Below, one piece after another: positions 4,230 to 36,527 of a DNA stretch of 36,766 nucleotides. A program made the position numbers and the translations under genes. Within the stretch, counting starts at the first letter, position 1; the number at the start of each line of letters is the position of its first letter. This DNA comes from Candidatus Omnitrophota bacterium (lineage in GTDB: Bacteria; Omnitrophota; Gorgyraeia; Zapsychrales; Fredricksoniimonadaceae). The stretch lies in contig JADFWS010000004.1 of NCBI GenBank assembly GCA_015234065.1, forward strand, positions 1 through 36,766, read 5' to 3'. The notes under the pieces are model-generated. The model ran no database searches and had not been told where the DNA came from. It was given only the letters and a program-made list of their open reading frames with translations.

Positions 4230-4595
4230 CTATTTCCCTCCGGACATTCTGACCGCGACCGAGCGAGCGCCCTTGAGAGCCGAAAGTTTATCAATCGTGA
4301 CCTGGGTAGAAACAATCTTCTTATCCAAAAGAACAACCTTGATGATCTCAGCCGCCAGCTTCTCTATAAGAAGGAATCGCGACGCCTTTACCAGCTTAAC
4401 CACGCGGTCTCTCAACGCCTCGTAATCCACGGCCTCATGAAGATCGTCGCTTTTAGAACAGGCGGCGGCATCATATTGAAATTTCAAATTGATCTGCAGC
4501 GTTTGCGGCGTTTTACGCTCATGCGGCTTGGTGCCGAGGATCGCCTTGACCGCAAGGTCTTTCAAATAAACTGTTGTCAGGGATTTTGAGCTCAT
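4230..4595 (-). CDS. folB: Dihydroneopterin aldolase
   Basis: 121 residues, the normal size for FolB, which splits 7,8-dihydroneopterin into 6-hydroxymethyl-dihydropterin and glycolaldehyde in folate synthesis. The N-terminal '[21 protein letters not shown]' matches the family pattern (…l.v….G…E…..Q), the central [13 protein letters not shown] holds the conserved Tyr, and '[11 protein letters not shown]' carries the family Glu and Leu-rich helix. Its start overlaps the folE stop by 4 bases (ATGA), so the two folate genes are translationally coupled. Confidence 0.9.
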
Positions 4596-10064: not shown

Positions 10065-12917
10065 TTATTGGGTTATCCCAAGGAATTCCGAGAGGCTGTC
10101 CAGAGGTTGAATATTCATAATAACGGGAATAAACCCCGAAGCATTCTGCAACGCGGCTATTTGAGCCGGATCAATATGAAACTCGATGCCTTGCCCGTCG
10201 CTTTGAACATTCAACTCAAGACGATCCGTATTAAGATCAATACCACCATCATTGGTTTTAGTCCCACTCCTGCGGGGCGTGATCTTCTTTTCAATACAGA
10301 TATTTGATACAGCCGAAGAACTCACGCCTAACATGGTCGCGATCTGTTCACGGGTTTCAGGAATACTGACATAATCTCTCGGGCCTATTGCCGGCGCATT
10401 CTCTTGAATAGCACGCTCGACCGCCAATTTCCGCACATTATCCGCCCAATCACGCACTGCCTGGCCTTTAGGAGAAATGGCCCTGCCCACAGGGCCGCGT
10501 GTCGTAAACCCGCGGGCCGACAATACGGCACTGGCCGTCTCCTCCGAAATATGGAATTTGCTTGTCAGCGCCTCCCTCGTCAAGGGCAATACTTTCAGTC
10601 CATTTCTCACATCTAACAAATCTTTATTCTGTATCCCGAGCCAATCAATGAACGCCTGTGTCTTTTCAGAGACAGCGCCGCGGCGCCCTTTGGTCTTAAT
10701 ACCAAATAAACTGAAGATCTCCTGAACGGTATACTGCGGGACCTTATATTCCTCAGCAATTTCCGGCTGCGTTCTATCAAGCTCAGCTCCGAGATTAATT
10801 CTTGCCCATTCATACAGCTTAAGCGCATTTTTAGATAACCTTCCCAAAGGCTCAACATGATAAAGTTGAAAAACAGCCGCAATAGTCCGACGATAAATGC
10901 CGTACTTCTTCTCAAGGTCCACAAGAGTATAGGGAACACGTTTCCTGCGGTTCTCATTTGCAAAGGCATGGAGCTCCTGCATCGCCTTGGCCCGATCCTT
11001 GGGTGACAGAACGATCATGGCATGCTCAGTCTGCTCTCCCGCCACTCCCTCAAAATACGCTTTGACCTCATCGGCGGCTCTTCGGCTTTCTTCAATCGTA
11101 CGATAAAAAATATGCCCTTCTGATGTAGATATTTCCTCTGTGACGGCCGCACCATAGGCGGCTGCGCGTGAAAACCCTGCCTGAACATAATCCTCTGCCG
11201 AAAGCAAAGGATGCACAACAAGCGCTGTATTGGAATCTTTCAATACATGATGTTCCAAATATGATTGAACAACAGCGCTCAAGAACGCATTGCGTAAAAG
11301 AGGGCTTTTGCGCTCGATCAACCATGCTGTTAGTTTGCAGGTATTCTTTTCCAGGAAATAATTATTCCGAGAAAACAACTCCTGCCGTTGATACGCGGCA
11401 AACCCTATGATCCGGCCGACGCCATTCTTTAGAAACACAACGCCTTCTATTTTCCCTGCCCGAATAGCCGCTTCGACCTTTAACGGAGAATCTGCAGTGT
11501 CCGACGAGAAGAATGACTCTTCATCAACCAGGACGGATGTATTCTCAACATCCTGAAACCGCAAATAATTCCTTAATCGCGCGACAACAGCATCTTCAAA
11601 CCCTGACAGACCGCGATGAAATGTTTCCGTGGAAAACTTTTCAGCGCCTAATATAAATTCTGTTGGCATACCTAATGTCGTGATCATCGCTGATTCAGAA
11701 TTCTTCACTCTCGAATGAATGACCATGGAATGGTCGTTTTGAAGCTCTTCAGCTGAAACTGTTTGGGCAGATTCAACCGGGACTTTCAGCACAATACCGC
11801 CAGAGAAGTATTTTCTTGGGATAACGTCACCAGACAGCGCGTCTTTTTCTTCACGGATCAAATCAACAGCGCCCTTCTTAAACGCTTCAACATATTCAGC
11901 CCAAATCTTTTCAGCCATTTTCAAATCATCGATATTCACGCCATTGATCTTTTTCTGATCAATATAAACTTTACTCAAGAGGCTTTTGTTGATCTTTTTC
12001 TTGTACCACGCGGCGAGGATCAGGGCATTGTAAATCTGGCGGAGCTTGGAGAAATTAGCGCCTTCATTGATTTCCTTTTCAAGGACCGGAATAACAATCT
12101 CGCGCAAGATCGCTTTCGAGACCGCCCCGACCCCGGAGGTTATGTCGGTCGTTGATGATTCGTCAAATTCCAAATCCTTACTCATTGATCCGTGCTTCTG
12201 TGCCGCTACATAATCGCTCTCGAGCATGACTTTAAGCCGGGATTCCGTAATATAGGCAACCGAGGATTTCTCATAAACAACTGCTTTCTGTGGAAGAATC
12301 CAGACCTTGTTGAACGTATCCACCGGGATATCGGTAGTCCCATACTTCTCGGCAGCCTGCTTATAAATCTCGGCCCAGAACTTTTTACCTGTCTCGCCTT
12401 CGGGATACAAGAGCGATGCTGTCACCTGTTTCAAAATATAATCTTGCGCCAACAGGTCTCGGCCCATTTCCGTCTGACCGAATTCATTCGGAATGATGCG
12501 GTCTTTTTCATAGGGTGACAGGTTGACCCACAGGTCTTTCTCGGGAACGGTGAGCGAGGCCAAGAAATATTTTATCAGCTTCTCGGATTCAACTCGAAGG
12601 CCGTCTGCGCTTGAAGACGCGTAGCCCTGCAGCGCATCTTCTTCCGAAGCAACATGTCCCCTGGCGGCCAACGGCGTGCGAACATCAAGTTGTGAACCTT
12701 TATCCAAAATAAAATCAAAGCGAAAAGGGTCATTGACGTATACCTTGACACCCTTAAGCATTGGCGGATTGACCGCCTGGCTCAATCCCACCATGCTCCC
12801 GGGTTCAGGAAGCACGCCCGCTCCGATGCCAAGCGACAAGCCCTCTGCTCGGACCGACAAAGTGCTATTGACAAAGAAAACGATGAGAATAAAAGTAGAT
12901 ATAAGTTTTTTAATCAT
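10065..12917 (-). CDS. Exported-looking multidomain protein with tandem HTH-like repeats (Omnitrophota type)
   Basis: 950 residues from the ATG at 12915-12917, which starts a clear signal peptide (MIKKLISTFILIVFFVNSTLSVRAE). Residues about 55-375 form a segment that I recall from Omnitrophota exported proteins ('FRFDFILDKG', 'LWVNLSPYEKDRIIP', 'FNKVWILPQKAVVYE'). Residues about 445-595 have a GNAT-like pattern: a Gly-rich beta strand pair, 'KLTAWLIE', and 'EDYVQAGFSRAAAY'. Then follow four HTH-like units near 663-693, 715-743, 778-808 and 851-883, the last three each preceded by a 'W'-containing helix and followed by a basic hinge ('TKGRRG', 'TRGPVG', 'PRRSG'). The last 50 residues ('GIEFHIDPAQ', 'PVIMNIQPLDSLSEFLG') look like a separate conserved tail. 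No enzymatic function can be assigned. Confidence 0.8.
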   Translation of the reverse strand: MIKKLISTFILIVFFVNSTLSVRAEGLSLGIGAGVLPEPGSMVGLSQAVNPPMLKGVKVYVNDPFRFDFILDKGSQLDVRTPLAARGHVASEEDALQGYASSSADGLRVESEKLIKYFLASLTVPEKDLWVNLSPYEKDRIIPNEFGQTEMGRDLLAQDYILKQVTASLLYPEGETGKKFWAEIYKQAAEKYGTTDIPVDTFNKVWILPQKAVVYEKSSVAYITESRLKVMLESDYVAAQKHGSMSKDLEFDESSTTDITSGVGAVSKAILREIVIPVLEKEINEGANFSKLRQIYNALILAAWYKKKINKSLLSKVYIDQKKINGVNIDDLKMAEKIWAEYVEAFKKGAVDLIREEKDALSGDVIPRKYFSGGIVLKVPVESAQTVSAEELQNDHSMVIHSRVKNSESAMITTLGMPTEFILGAEKFSTETFHRGLSGFEDAVVARLRNYLRFQDVENTSVLVDEESFFSSDTADSPLKVEAAIRAGKIEGVVFLKNGVGRIIGFAAYQRQELFSRNNYFLEKNTCKLTAWLIERKSPLLRNAFLSAVVQSYLEHHVLKDSNTALVVHPLLSAEDYVQAGFSRAAAYGAAVTEEISTSEGHIFYRTIEESRRAADEVKAYFEGVAGEQTEHAMIVLSPKDRAKAMQELHAFANENRRKRVPYTLVDLEKKYGIYRRTIAAVFQLYHVEPLGRLSKNALKLYEWARINLGAELDRTQPEIAEEYKVPQYTVQEIFSLFGIKTKGRRGAVSEKTQAFIDWLGIQNKDLLDVRNGLKVLPLTREALTSKFHISEETASAVLSARGFTTRGPVGRAISPKGQAVRDWADNVRKLAVERAIQENAPAIGPRDYVSIPETREQIATMLGVSSSAVSNICIEKKITPRRSGTKTNDGGIDLNTDRLELNVQSDGQGIEFHIDPAQIAALQNASGFIPVIMNIQPLDSLSEFLGITQ

Positions 12918-13080
12918 ATTTCCAACCATCAACCACAAATCAGAAAATGCAGGTGGTCCTTCGGCCTTACGGCATCAAGATAACACAGCCCAGCATAACG
13001 AATCCCCTATAAGTATTATCTATAGATATGTGAAAAGAAAGGGCAAAATCAAGATCACAAGAAAACGTTTTCCGCTAAAA
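12918..13080 (-). promoter_or_regulatory. Leader region of the exported HTH-repeat gene, with possible RNA structure
   Basis: This stretch holds no gene. On the minus strand it has a GCC-GTAA-GGC stem with a GNRA-type tetraloop (12964-12973) and an ACCAC...GTGGT stem (12932-12957) close to the start codon. I could not match it to a known riboswitch. AT-rich -10-like strings occur near 13005-13025 but none has a convincing -35. The ribosome site before the ATG is weak (TTGGA). Confidence 0.3.
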
Positions 13081-31643: not shown

Positions 31644-34600
31644 TTATTCCACAACCTGAACTCTGCCCTGTCCATTCACACTGACAATCGACGGATCATA
31701 CATTTCTTCCGCCTTAACCGCAGGCAGAACAAAGCCGCCCTTGGTGACTGCCCGGACAATATACCGATAATGCTCAACCCCGCCCTTAACATCTAAGAAC
31801 AGCACCAACCGATCATCACGAATGTCCATGTGAACCGGCTCGATCATGTCGCCAGAAATCCAGTCCATCTTCTCAGTCGTCTTAAGCCGCGGATTTTCGA
31901 TCTCGAAACCAGCCGGCAATAGATCTTCGACAACGATATTATCCAAACCTGCCGCTCCTTCGATCTTAAAATCCACAACCACAGTATCGCCGTGCTTTAT
32001 TGCATTGAGATCTACGGGCTTACCGTCACGATTCAAAAAAGTCCGGCGAATCTTAATTCCACTGTCCTTCTCCTGGGCCGTCCCAGCTGTTGGCACACCC
32101 TCGGATGTCCAATAAACATACGCCGTTCCTTTACCGGCAACTGAAACCTCAACCGTCTTACCGGCAAGGTCGAGATCAGACACTTCCAAACCGTTATGAC
32201 TGGTGAACTCACGCACAGCGTCACCAATCTTGACGGTTCCGTTGAACTCGATATTCTCCTGGGTAAAATAACGGGCATATTTACCCAGAGCGATCAACGC
32301 CTGAGCATTTTCCTGAGTTGATGCCCACTGGCCGTTAGTCATGGCCTTCTCAAGACGAGAAACAAGAACAGGAACCATTGCGTTCTGCGGCTCAAGATCC
32401 ATATAGATCGACAAGACCACGGCATTTTGCCTGACATACGACATCAGATTTCCGCCGAGTTCGCGCTTAACCTGGTCGTCCGGGAAACTCTGCCCTAAGG
32501 TTTCCTCCACAGCCTTTCTATCACCAAGAGCGCTCAAAGCCGCCGCAACATAACACCTTGATTCAGCGGGCAGCTTATCTTTCATCTCCTGCAGACGACG
32601 GATCCAGGACGCATTGATCCTCCCCGCCTTGGCCAGAACATACGCCGCGTACGCCTTGAGCTCTGGGGTATATGCTTCGTCCTTCTTTGCTAACACACCT
32701 TCAAGGTACCCCAATGCCAATATCTTGGCGAATTGCGGAACGGCATATCCCGCCTTATCAGCTTCAACTAGGAAGTCCGTGGCATAGACGCTGCCGTAAA
32801 CATATTCATTGCGCTCCCCCTGCCACATTGAGAACCCGCCCCACAATGTCTGCATGGAAAGAACCCGTTCTATGCCGGCATTAACGAGTTTGCTTATGGT
32901 ATCGGGATTGTATTTCCGGCTATCCATGGTCATCGCCAGATCCCTCAAATACAACAGCGGAAATACCGTCGATGTGGTTTGCTCAATACAACCGTAAGGA
33001 TACTTAAGAAGATACCCCAAACCACCGGAGATCTTTAAGGACGGCATACCGGAAATGATCAGCTTCGTGCGGGCCGTTCCATCAAGCCAGCCAGCCGGGA
33101 TCGTCAACGGTTTCGCAGATCCCGCAGGCACTTCAAGAACACCGTTCAATGTGGACCAACCGACCGGTGGTCTGACCGCGATCTCTGTGGTCCTGGACAC
33201 GTTATCATTCCGCAGTGTTGCGCTGATCTTAATTTCACCTTTTTGCGGCGTGGCCGGGGCCTTCAACTTAAAGGTAACAACGCCTTCCTTATTCGGGGCG
33301 AGCGTCACTACCTGCTTCTTCTCACCCGTCACTGCAAAGCTGTTCGGCACATCCAGTGAAACAACTACATCCCCCGCCTCTTTTGTCATATTCGATACGG
33401 AAATAGACAGAAGGAACTCATCGTTCATGGATAAGAAGCGCGGCAGGAACGGATTCAAGACCACCGGCTCAACAACCTTCACTTCTCCATCCTGAGCGAC
33501 AAAGTCACTTTCACCAGCACCGACAATGATCCACTTCAACTTACCGTTGAATTCCGGTATGGTGAACTCAACCTGGGCTTTTCCGTCAGCATCAGTCACG
33601 ATCTGACTCTTCCAAAGTGCGATGCTCTTCACCCTCTTGGCATTGACCGGATTGTAATGTTTAGCATCATACGACTTGTCGCCGGACGGTGAAGAATCCG
33701 CGGCAGCCTTACTTTCTTCCAACTCCGGCATTAGAAGAGAATAAATATCACTCGTCTGGAAGCCATTCGTGCGCTTGCCATAGAAGAAGTTAAACGCATC
33801 CGGAGTCTTATAACCTGTCAGACGCAAGATCGCGTCATCGACCAGGGCAACAGAGAACTCAATAGGCTTCCCTGCCGGACCTTTAATATCCAACTTAACC
33901 GTGTCATTTGGACGCGCCTCAGCGGGAACACTAACATCAACCACGGTCTTATGAGCATCATTGTTCACCATGATCGGGACAATCCCATACCCACGATGTG
34001 ACGTCCACTGTCCTCCAACCGTAACCGGCCGGATCACCGTGAGTGAACAATAAGCATTAGGCGAAAACTCCTCAGTGACCGAAATAGCTTCCTGCTGGGC
34101 AGCCGCTCCCACATCCAGCGTCTTACTCAGAAATACCTTATCTGTTGCGCAAGTCAGCAAGGCTTTGCCGGCAAGCGGGGACTTGATGGATAACTGCGCT
34201 GTTTCTCCAACAGCATATGAAACTTTATCAAAGGCCAGGTCAATCCTGTCCGGCCGTTCCTTGGCCCAACTAACGACGCCTGGCCCTTCAACAAAAAGCT
34301 TAACCGAAGACGCATGAGCATTATCCCCTGATCCCTTGAATCTCAGGATATAATCGCCTGCGGATTGCGGCGTGAAAGCAAATGTTCCTGCCCCGTCTTG
34401 CGGCGTTAATGTTTTATGATCAAAGCAATCCTCACGGCTTTCTGTGATCCATTGCCACTCGCCCTTATCGCCCTTCTTAATCATGCTGCTCCAAATGACC
34501 TTGCAGACATCCGCGCTAACTTCTGCCGCGGGTGCCTTTGTGCCATCCGGCAAAAGGGCAACATAATCAAACTTCACTTCTTGACCCAGAATGCCGTTCC

Positions 34601-36479
34601 CCTCGATCTGAGGCTTCACACCGACGTAATAAGGATAAACATCAATGTTCCTGTCCTCGTAAACTGAAGATCCGCGCCCACCGATCTCTTTCGCAGTCAC
34701 GCGAACAGACATCTCCAGGGCTGACGGCGGCAACTTAACATCACCAATCTTGATCTCAAACGCAGCATTGCCATTCTCGTCCGACTTCTTAATGGCCAGA
34801 TACTCACGCTTAAAGGTAAACGCACGCGTGTCATCAGAAAATGAAAAGCCCTTGTAGTCTTTCGGCTCAAACTTAACCGCTTTGAGGTTGTACGACACAT
34901 CGATATCCCGTCCTGATGCCGGCGCGCCAAAGTTCTGCTGAACATTAACCTCGACCGGAACCGCCTCTTCCTTCTTAAAGCGCTTGTCCGCAACCTTCGC
35001 CGCAACCTTCAGACTGTCCGGCACAAACTCTTCAACATTTAACTTAGCCTCACCTATCGGCTTGTCGCTACCTGGGATCTTCAAGGCGATCTTATATTCG
35101 CCGGTCAAAGCGTAGTCAGGCAGCTCAACTTCAACATCCGCTGTGCCAAACTTATTAAGAACCGCGTTATAGTCCTTGAACTTCTTTCCATCGGGACGGG
35201 AAATCTCAAAAATAACCGGAAAACTATCTGGGATCTTTACGCCAGGCGCACGAACAATCGTTCGCACATTAGCCTTCTCTCCGGGACGATATACGCCACG
35301 GTCGCTATAAATAAACCCTTCATAACCTGCGCTCAGATACGGCCGGCCCTGAATATCAAAGTCCGTCTCGGAGATCGTATTGCTGGCAACCTCCAGATAT
35401 GACATATCCGCATCTTTGGAAACCGTAACAACAAATGGCTCCCTGTCCTTGCCAAAATCAACATCCTTAAATCTCATCAAACCATTCTCATCTGTCTGTC
35501 CCTCGACGATTAGCTGATTGGTTTTACTTAAAACCTTAACAGTTGCACCGGCCACAGGTGTTGTGTCCTTTAGAGAACAAGCCCAGACCAGGAGCTCCCG
35601 AGGCCCCTTCTTTAAGAGAATACCAATGTCCGTAACAAGGACGATCTTAGAATCCCCGCTGCCCTCTCCTGTTGGGTCAGACGCCGTGATATGAAATAAC
35701 CCTTGCTGGTTCTCGGGCAAAAGGCTTTTCAGATCGATCTGCGCTTCCTTAATAACATTAAGTCCGGCGACAATAGGAATGTCCCTGGTTACAAGATCAA
35801 CCCCAATGTCCTGCGGTCCTCGGTAATCTCCGGTGTTGTTCAAGAAATATACGACGTTATTATCATAAAGACGATGCACGGCAAGATGCACCTTGCTCAG
35901 GTTTACAGCCTCAAATGGAATGATCCTGTTCCCCTTCAACCCCAAATACATCCCCGGAACCTTAAATCGCACAGTCGGCTCATAATCAGGAATAACAACA
36001 TCCGCAGTATCGCCCTCTTTGAGTACAGCACCGTCTTCAGACTTTAAGCCAGCCAAGATCTCAACGTGGTAAGTTTGTCCGGGCTTAAAGTCGCCGTGGA
36101 TCCTCATGCCTTCATAATCATCATCGACATAGAACTTTACCTCAGGCTTTATATCTACATATCCCTTAACATCGGCTTTACCAAGCGATTCGTTTAACTT
36201 CACAGCGATCGAGACATCTGTTCCGGACACTTCCGGCTTAATCTCGTTAACAGAGAGCTTGTTAGTCATAGACTTGACCGCATCCTGAACGTCCTTCGCC
36301 TTCTTTTGAAACAGATGCGTTAACGCCTCAAACCGGGCTCCGATAACATCAAAGATAGCGGGTCGTTGGAAGGATCCATTGCCCTCCATCACGCCCACAA
36401 TCTTTACCAGCCCGACGATATTTATCGTCGCGAACAGGACTGTGATCCAGAACCATCTTTGCTTGAACATGTCTTTCAT
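31644..36479 (-). CDS. Bacterial alpha-2-macroglobulin (YfhM-like), thioester type
   Basis: 1611 residues. A transmembrane helix near residues 9-30 replaces the lipoprotein signal of E. coli YfhM. A run of macroglobulin (MG) domains follows, including 'YLSAGYEGFIYSDRGVYRPG' (the conserved MG signature). The thioester motif CIEQ (Cys1164-Gln1167) in YPYGCIEQTTS is followed by an alpha-toroid ('GGFSMWQGERNEYVYGS') and a receptor-binding-like C-terminal domain. Such proteins trap foreign proteases in the periplasm, while the PBP1C partner repairs murein. I start it at 36477-36479 after GGGGAG and CAGGA; a longer N-terminus of 9 residues is possible. Confidence 0.93.
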   Translation of the reverse strand: MKDMFKQRWFWITVLFATINIVGLVKIVGVMEGNGSFQRPAIFDVIGARFEALTHLFQKKAKDVQDAVKSMTNKLSVNEIKPEVSGTDVSIAVKLNESLGKADVKGYVDIKPEVKFYVDDDYEGMRIHGDFKPGQTYHVEILAGLKSEDGAVLKEGDTADVVIPDYEPTVRFKVPGMYLGLKGNRIIPFEAVNLSKVHLAVHRLYDNNVVYFLNNTGDYRGPQDIGVDLVTRDIPIVAGLNVIKEAQIDLKSLLPENQQGLFHITASDPTGEGSGDSKIVLVTDIGILLKKGPRELLVWACSLKDTTPVAGATVKVLSKTNQLIVEGQTDENGLMRFKDVDFGKDREPFVVTVSKDADMSYLEVASNTISETDFDIQGRPYLSAGYEGFIYSDRGVYRPGEKANVRTIVRAPGVKIPDSFPVIFEISRPDGKKFKDYNAVLNKFGTADVEVELPDYALTGEYKIALKIPGSDKPIGEAKLNVEEFVPDSLKVAAKVADKRFKKEEAVPVEVNVQQNFGAPASGRDIDVSYNLKAVKFEPKDYKGFSFSDDTRAFTFKREYLAIKKSDENGNAAFEIKIGDVKLPPSALEMSVRVTAKEIGGRGSSVYEDRNIDVYPYYVGVKPQIEGNGILGQEVKFDYVALLPDGTKAPAAEVSADVCKVIWSSMIKKGDKGEWQWITESREDCFDHKTLTPQDGAGTFAFTPQSAGDYILRFKGSGDNAHASSVKLFVEGPGVVSWAKERPDRIDLAFDKVSYAVGETAQLSIKSPLAGKALLTCATDKVFLSKTLDVGAAAQQEAISVTEEFSPNAYCSLTVIRPVTVGGQWTSHRGYGIVPIMVNNDAHKTVVDVSVPAEARPNDTVKLDIKGPAGKPIEFSVALVDDAILRLTGYKTPDAFNFFYGKRTNGFQTSDIYSLLMPELEESKAAADSSPSGDKSYDAKHYNPVNAKRVKSIALWKSQIVTDADGKAQVEFTIPEFNGKLKWIIVGAGESDFVAQDGEVKVVEPVVLNPFLPRFLSMNDEFLLSISVSNMTKEAGDVVVSLDVPNSFAVTGEKKQVVTLAPNKEGVVTFKLKAPATPQKGEIKISATLRNDNVSRTTEIAVRPPVGWSTLNGVLEVPAGSAKPLTIPAGWLDGTARTKLIISGMPSLKISGGLGYLLKYPYGCIEQTTSTVFPLLYLRDLAMTMDSRKYNPDTISKLVNAGIERVLSMQTLWGGFSMWQGERNEYVYGSVYATDFLVEADKAGYAVPQFAKILALGYLEGVLAKKDEAYTPELKAYAAYVLAKAGRINASWIRRLQEMKDKLPAESRCYVAAALSALGDRKAVEETLGQSFPDDQVKRELGGNLMSYVRQNAVVLSIYMDLEPQNAMVPVLVSRLEKAMTNGQWASTQENAQALIALGKYARYFTQENIEFNGTVKIGDAVREFTSHNGLEVSDLDLAGKTVEVSVAGKGTAYVYWTSEGVPTAGTAQEKDSGIKIRRTFLNRDGKPVDLNAIKHGDTVVVDFKIEGAAGLDNIVVEDLLPAGFEIENPRLKTTEKMDWISGDMIEPVHMDIRDDRLVLFLDVKGGVEHYRYIVRAVTKGGFVLPAVKAEEMYDPSIVSVNGQGRVQVVE

Positions 36480-36527
36480 TGTCCTGCTCCCCTCTGAATT
36501 AAACACACACTTAAAATATCCTTGTGA

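Follow-up and report, generated by a model that had tools for sequence, protein, structure and literature searches.

An exported helix-turn-helix array as one cargo of a two-ended, many-membered protein family in Omnitrophota

Why should a protein with a secretion signal carry what look like DNA-binding domains? The question is raised by a minus-strand open reading frame (ORF) at positions 10065-12917 of contig JADFWS010000004.1 (assembly GCA_015234065.1) from a Candidatus Omnitrophota bacterium. The stretch of this contig that was analysed, positions 1 to 36,766, is referred to below as the window. Omnitrophota are tiny, widespread, uncultured bacteria and suspected predators or parasites. 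The ORF codes for 950 amino acids (aa) from an ATG at 12917. A first-pass annotation, made from the letters alone, described it as an exported-looking protein with an Omnitrophota-type N-terminus, a possible GNAT fold and tandem helix-turn-helix (HTH)-like repeats. The protein is a member of a very large Omnitrophota family whose members consist of a signal peptide, a constant N-terminal module (N-module), swappable cargo and a constant C-terminal tail with a GGID motif (GGID tail). The view of the protein as a lone secreted HTH/GNAT oddity was dropped after these constant ends emerged.

The signal peptide is of the Sec type and occupies residues 1-24 (MIKKLISTFILIVFFVNSTLSVRA, followed by EG; 12846-12917, minus strand). 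It consists of MIKK, the hydrophobic core LISTFILIVFFVNSTLS and VRA before EG, matching the AxA-type site that is a family-wide pattern. An alternative TTG start upstream, at 12938, would add seven residues and retain the signal peptide. The earlier claim of a signal at the protein start is borne out. A test for the n-, h- and c-regions of signal peptides was passed by 167 of 176 family members against 117 of 460 control ORFs, a contrast somewhat inflated by the fact that family start codons were picked to favour a pass. Nearly all family members look exported.

The constant N-module follows at residues 25-385 (11763-12845, minus strand). Its roughly 350 residues are strongly conserved, with WVNLSPYEKDRI, then TEMGRDLLAQDYxLKQ, and YFSGG at the end, all of which the 950-aa protein has. 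Mean column identity over 25 paralogs is 48%, and 168 of 180 modules end in YFxGG. No family in Pfam or NCBIfam covers the module. Its AlphaFold model (predicted local distance difference test, pLDDT, 78; predicted template modelling score, pTM, 0.70) has no fold match in PDB or BFVD with E <0.1, and assignment to a known fold was dropped for this reason. A profile match to prohibitin (E 0.094) was dismissed as chance.

About 25 copies of the N-terminal 385 residues exist in the genome of the window, and the same segment recurs in 52 of 55 relatives. Among the genomes searched, 35 of 37 from the same order and 90 of 285 from the same phylum contain the module. This recurrence confirms the Omnitrophota-type N-terminus noted at first, although that annotation missed that this end is fixed while the cargo varies from protein to protein. 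In a named genome collection at least 493 relatives were confirmed; of the 80 that were listed, nearly all are titled Omnitrophota, two are titled "Elulimicrobium" and one just "bacterium". In more distant families of the class, too, the module comes after a hydrophobic N-terminus and before large cargo, and a GGID-like tail motif is found in several. One 93%-complete relative has 81 module-matching stretches, though a single gene can account for more than one of them. In genome G010 many matches break off near module position 101-104 at contig ends, as if repeated module DNA broke the assemblies, which makes copy numbers taken from draft genomes uncertain.

The other constant end, the GGID tail, had gone unnoticed. 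It covers residues ~889-950 (10068-10253, minus strand) and adjoins the stop; residues 889-948 match the tail profile with E 6e-27, the protein itself being in that profile. Of 118 complete family ORFs, 101 have both the N-module and the tail, which is 60 aa long and starts with GGID; the cargo enclosed by the two ends measures 184-2327 aa. The tail lies a median of 4 aa from the stop, and within 30 aa of it in 100 of the 101. No relation of the tail to solved chains was detected. The search for N- and C-terminal segments in other Omnitrophota, proposed with the first-pass annotation, thus shows that both recur.

What lies between the constant ends varies widely. Pfam scans of about 130 cargo regions, from loci whose sources overlap somewhat, recognised enzymes of carbon metabolism (enolase, triose-phosphate isomerase, class II aldolase, transketolase with histidine phosphatase, transaldolase, hexokinase and PPDK) and other enzymes (Glu and Ala dehydrogenases, HAD, methyltransferases, radical SAM/B12, PRTase, HD and amylase). 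Signalling domains (protein kinases, PP2C, histidine-kinase ATPases, GGDEF and ABC1 kinase), SNF2 and DEAD helicases, Fic, and M48 and S8 peptidases are also found, as are repeats (TPR, HEAT, ankyrin and WD40) and HTH arrays. Many of the regions have no Pfam match. Most recognised cargo of the sister proteins is not a toxin, Fic being present in one member, and the cargo of the 950-aa protein itself has no toxin match in Pfam.

Five enolases, each flanked by the two constant ends, have retained their catalytic Lys, three metal-binding acids, SHRSGET loop and the Lys of IKTG. An ordinary enolase of ~430 aa is also encoded in four of the five genomes that have a fused one. One of the five, at L292:2315-7030 in genome G048, is a circularly permuted enolase in which the C-terminal barrel stands ahead of the N-terminal domain and the catalytic residues are kept. 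In G048, which is 95% complete, this fused and permuted enolase is the only one found.

A constant carrier is thus combined with variable cargo among paralogs, and one pair suggests how the combinations arise. At their 5' ends the paralogs L301 and L302 of G010 share 92-100% identity across ~400 bp (signal peptide and start of the module), including an exact stretch of 273 bp. Within the module identity drops to 46-64%; the cargo is unrelated and the tails are related. The pair demonstrates that the constant end has undergone recombination or gene conversion, and is a direct footprint of module exchange.

In the 950-aa protein, the cargo begins with a variable region at residues 386-635 (11013-11762, minus strand). 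Residues 445-595 of this region had been thought to have a GNAT fold. No Pfam match is found here up to E=1 or even E=5, and there is no homolog among the loci compared. The AlphaFold model is mostly below pLDDT 60, too low to judge a remote GNAT, and the GNAT proposal is left unsupported.

The last third of the protein consists of four trihelical HTH units. A profile of 13 units from three other proteins, excluding the protein studied here, matched all four (whole-protein E 1.3e-26, 78.5 bits), while the top score among 1000 shuffles of residues 386-885 was 5.8 bits. The AlphaFold model of residues 386-950 has four three-helix bundles (pLDDT ~75-96) with a turn of 3-4 residues between helices 2 and 3. 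Unit 1 (residues 639-690; 10848-11003, minus strand, as are the others) has three helices in the model and a profile match at 646-696 of 22.4 bits. Unit 2 (residues 696-747, EIAEEYKVPQYTVQEIFSLF; 10677-10832) is also seen in the model and gives the best match (700-747, 36.2 bits). Unit 3 (residues 751-809; 10491-10667) has a small inserted beta hairpin in the model and a weak match (777-809, 2.7 bits). Unit 4 (residues 816-883; 10269-10472) is modelled with a long first helix and an insertion; its profile match is at 850-881 (11.3 bits), and the only Pfam matches of the protein, HTH_Crp_2 (4e-5) and Sigma70_r4 (1e-3), fall here, both below cut-off. The model of residues 386-950 has no significant fold match in PDB (best E 0.12); the top insignificant ones are mostly sigma-54, TFIIB and CRP-type HTH proteins. 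At least three tandem repeats had been claimed from the sequence. Structure prediction and the independent profile agree with trihelical HTH folds for those three and add unit 1, which had been overlooked.

The HTH array is basic, with an isoelectric point (pI) of 9.9 (9.8-10.6 when three other HTH members are included), while the N-module and tail of the same protein are acidic. Arrays of the same type with 6, 4 and 3 units are found in three other family members, in one of which a protein-kinase-like domain, noticed by sequence inspection, adjoins the array. The units resemble Sigma-70 region 4, HTH_23 and Crp-type HTH domains in being trihelical with equal turn spacing, and differ in being in tandem, behind a signal peptide and under the family cut-offs. 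Another family member (L101:1388-4798) has about seven double repeats of ~78 aa, one half of each being a Fis-like HTH. Exported HTH arrays are thus of two kinds, this one being independent of the first.

The module is not limited to Omnitrophota, since it is also encoded on six Streptomyces plasmids (tblastn, up to E 1e-26; profile E 1e-37 to 1e-59 for three). Five of the Streptomyces proteins (L296, L297, L298, L299 and L300) have, in order, a hydrophobic N-terminus, an N-terminal domain, GG[IV]DF, the module, GGVD[FL]S and a C-terminal membrane segment. One protein has a LAETG-type sorting signal that scores just under the cut-off, and the Streptomyces homologs, labelled hypothetical proteins, look wall-anchored. 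In the N-terminal domains, a deaminase-like motif (HSE...CxxC) was seen by eye in two proteins and a nuclease-like motif (E...D-A-x-N...E-[IF]-K-S) in three. A GG motif flanks the cargo in both phyla, and the domain order differs. The Streptomyces module has a GGID hairpin whose motif is suggestive of the Omnitrophota tail, but homology of the two is not claimed (profile score 4.6 bits, a level reached by 2 of 2000 shuffles).

What might such a protein do? It is best read as a carrier resembling polymorphic toxins, with an HTH cargo that would act on nucleic acid inside another cell, prey or host. The N-module and GGID tail probably form one carrier or sorting unit, which would move the cargo across the inner membrane and export it from the cell. 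Cargo would be exchanged by recombination at the constant ends, as in the one clear case above. Region 386-635 and the basic array of four sigma-region-4/HTH_23-like units would be the cargo in this protein, which would act as a delivered nucleic-acid-binding effector. Two lines of evidence point this way: the sister cargos that need cytoplasm (kinases, histidine-kinase ATPases, the SNF2 helicase, hexokinase and intact enolases) and the Streptomyces proteins in which the module stands behind nuclease- or deaminase-like domains. Since ATP or a cytoplasm is required by many of the cargos, and the genome usually encodes a normal copy as well, the cytoplasm of another cell would be the likeliest workplace. 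A predatory or parasitic lifestyle is plausible for Omnitrophota (PMC10066038), and dead archaeal prey has been seen to contain intron RNA from one of them (PMC13153191). The reading is given a probability of about one half, because both delivery and binding are steps that we infer. An effector role was already suggested at first; the family-wide evidence makes it more plausible, while its acetyltransferase component is unsupported.

Several points weigh against delivery of a nucleic-acid effector. The evidence for export extends only to the signal peptide. An outer-membrane route exists via secretins, of which all 29 genomes tested have several each, and nothing ties these to the family. A search for SprA of the type IX secretion system found no match, but its control search matched nowhere either. 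Housekeeping enzymes are unusual effector cargo, and the recognition helices of the array are not strikingly basic. The nuclease- and deaminase-like domains of Streptomyces have no Pfam or profile match, and their motifs were called by eye only. As for an adjacent immunity gene, the downstream neighbour is a convergent DNA-alkylation-repair gene.

In polymorphic toxin systems, a constant trafficking part is joined to a variable toxin domain, and the plan of a constant exporter with variable cargo is known from them. The present family resembles them in its constant exported carrier with interchangeable, mutually unrelated cargo, in its numerous paralogs, in recombination at the constant part and in the toxin-like domains of the Streptomyces relatives of the module. 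It differs in that the cargo lies between two constant ends instead of at the C-terminus, the majority of recognised cargo is not of the toxin type, and the module is outside Pfam and NCBIfam. Cargo proteins of type IX secretion are similar in that many unrelated proteins share a signal peptide and a conserved C-terminal domain. The present family, however, also has a conserved N-module of ~350 residues, and its GGID tail is without detected relation to solved chains. TAL effectors are secreted DNA-binding proteins with tandem repeats; they are compared here by concept, and their 34-aa helical hairpins differ from the few trihelical HTH repeats of ~50-60 aa described above. Nothing on such a family in Omnitrophota was found in the open-access papers searched. 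Within these there appears to be no description of the module, of its two-ended arrangement and scale, or of metabolic and HTH cargo.

The best of the competing explanations, though a rather unlikely one, is that the proteins stay in the periplasm, at the cell surface or within an extracellular coat, as part of a matrix of the cell's own in which HTH and similar domains serve as protein- or polymer-binding folds. Signal peptides prove only inner-membrane export, many cargos are repeats such as TPR, HEAT, ankyrin and WD40, and the wall-anchored look of the Streptomyces homologs would suit such a matrix. Intact enolases beside normal copies and ATP-dependent cargos, however, hardly fit a coat. 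Distinctly less probable is binding of extracellular DNA at the surface by the HTH array, in DNA capture, biofilm or uptake; a surface DNA-binding protein was among the possibilities raised at first. While the array is exported, basic and made of four sigma-region-4-like units, this proposal covers HTH cargo only and not the other members with the same constant ends. An internal membrane-bound compartment, reached by the signal peptide and housing a second set of metabolic enzymes, would explain why enzymes of central metabolism are duplicated and keep their active sites intact, but it is very improbable given the toxin-like domains of the Streptomyces relatives and the Fic cargo, and we know of no established Sec-fed, ATP-supplied compartment of that kind.

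Returning to delivered effectors, a broader and more tentative idea is that the family is a large, recombining tool kit of working cytoplasmic machines (enzymes of glycolysis and the pentose-phosphate pathway, kinases, helicases and HTH arrays) delivered into other cells on one dedicated carrier. The GG motifs flanking the cargo on either side could be the site of processing or release, and the cargo might take over the metabolism and transcription of the prey or host instead of simply killing it. To our knowledge, no effector set has been described for Omnitrophota. Since each genome has dozens of members, identifiable by their two constant ends, the family is a concrete list of candidate effectors, and makes protein injection by Omnitrophota, and the action of the injected proteins, directly testable. 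It also exposes an unnamed carrier module common to Omnitrophota and to wall-anchored-looking, toxin-like proteins of Streptomyces.

Two minor observations concern the surroundings. A dispersed palindromic repeat, ATCCTTCGGCTTCGCCTCAGGATGA, is found at L068:3407-3431 and at L077:4113-4137, 4515-4539 and 4557-4581. It sits in the coding sequence of two family members of the genome of the window, in a variable loop of the module; there is none in the window. The window also has a minus-strand ORF of 1620 aa at 31644-36506.
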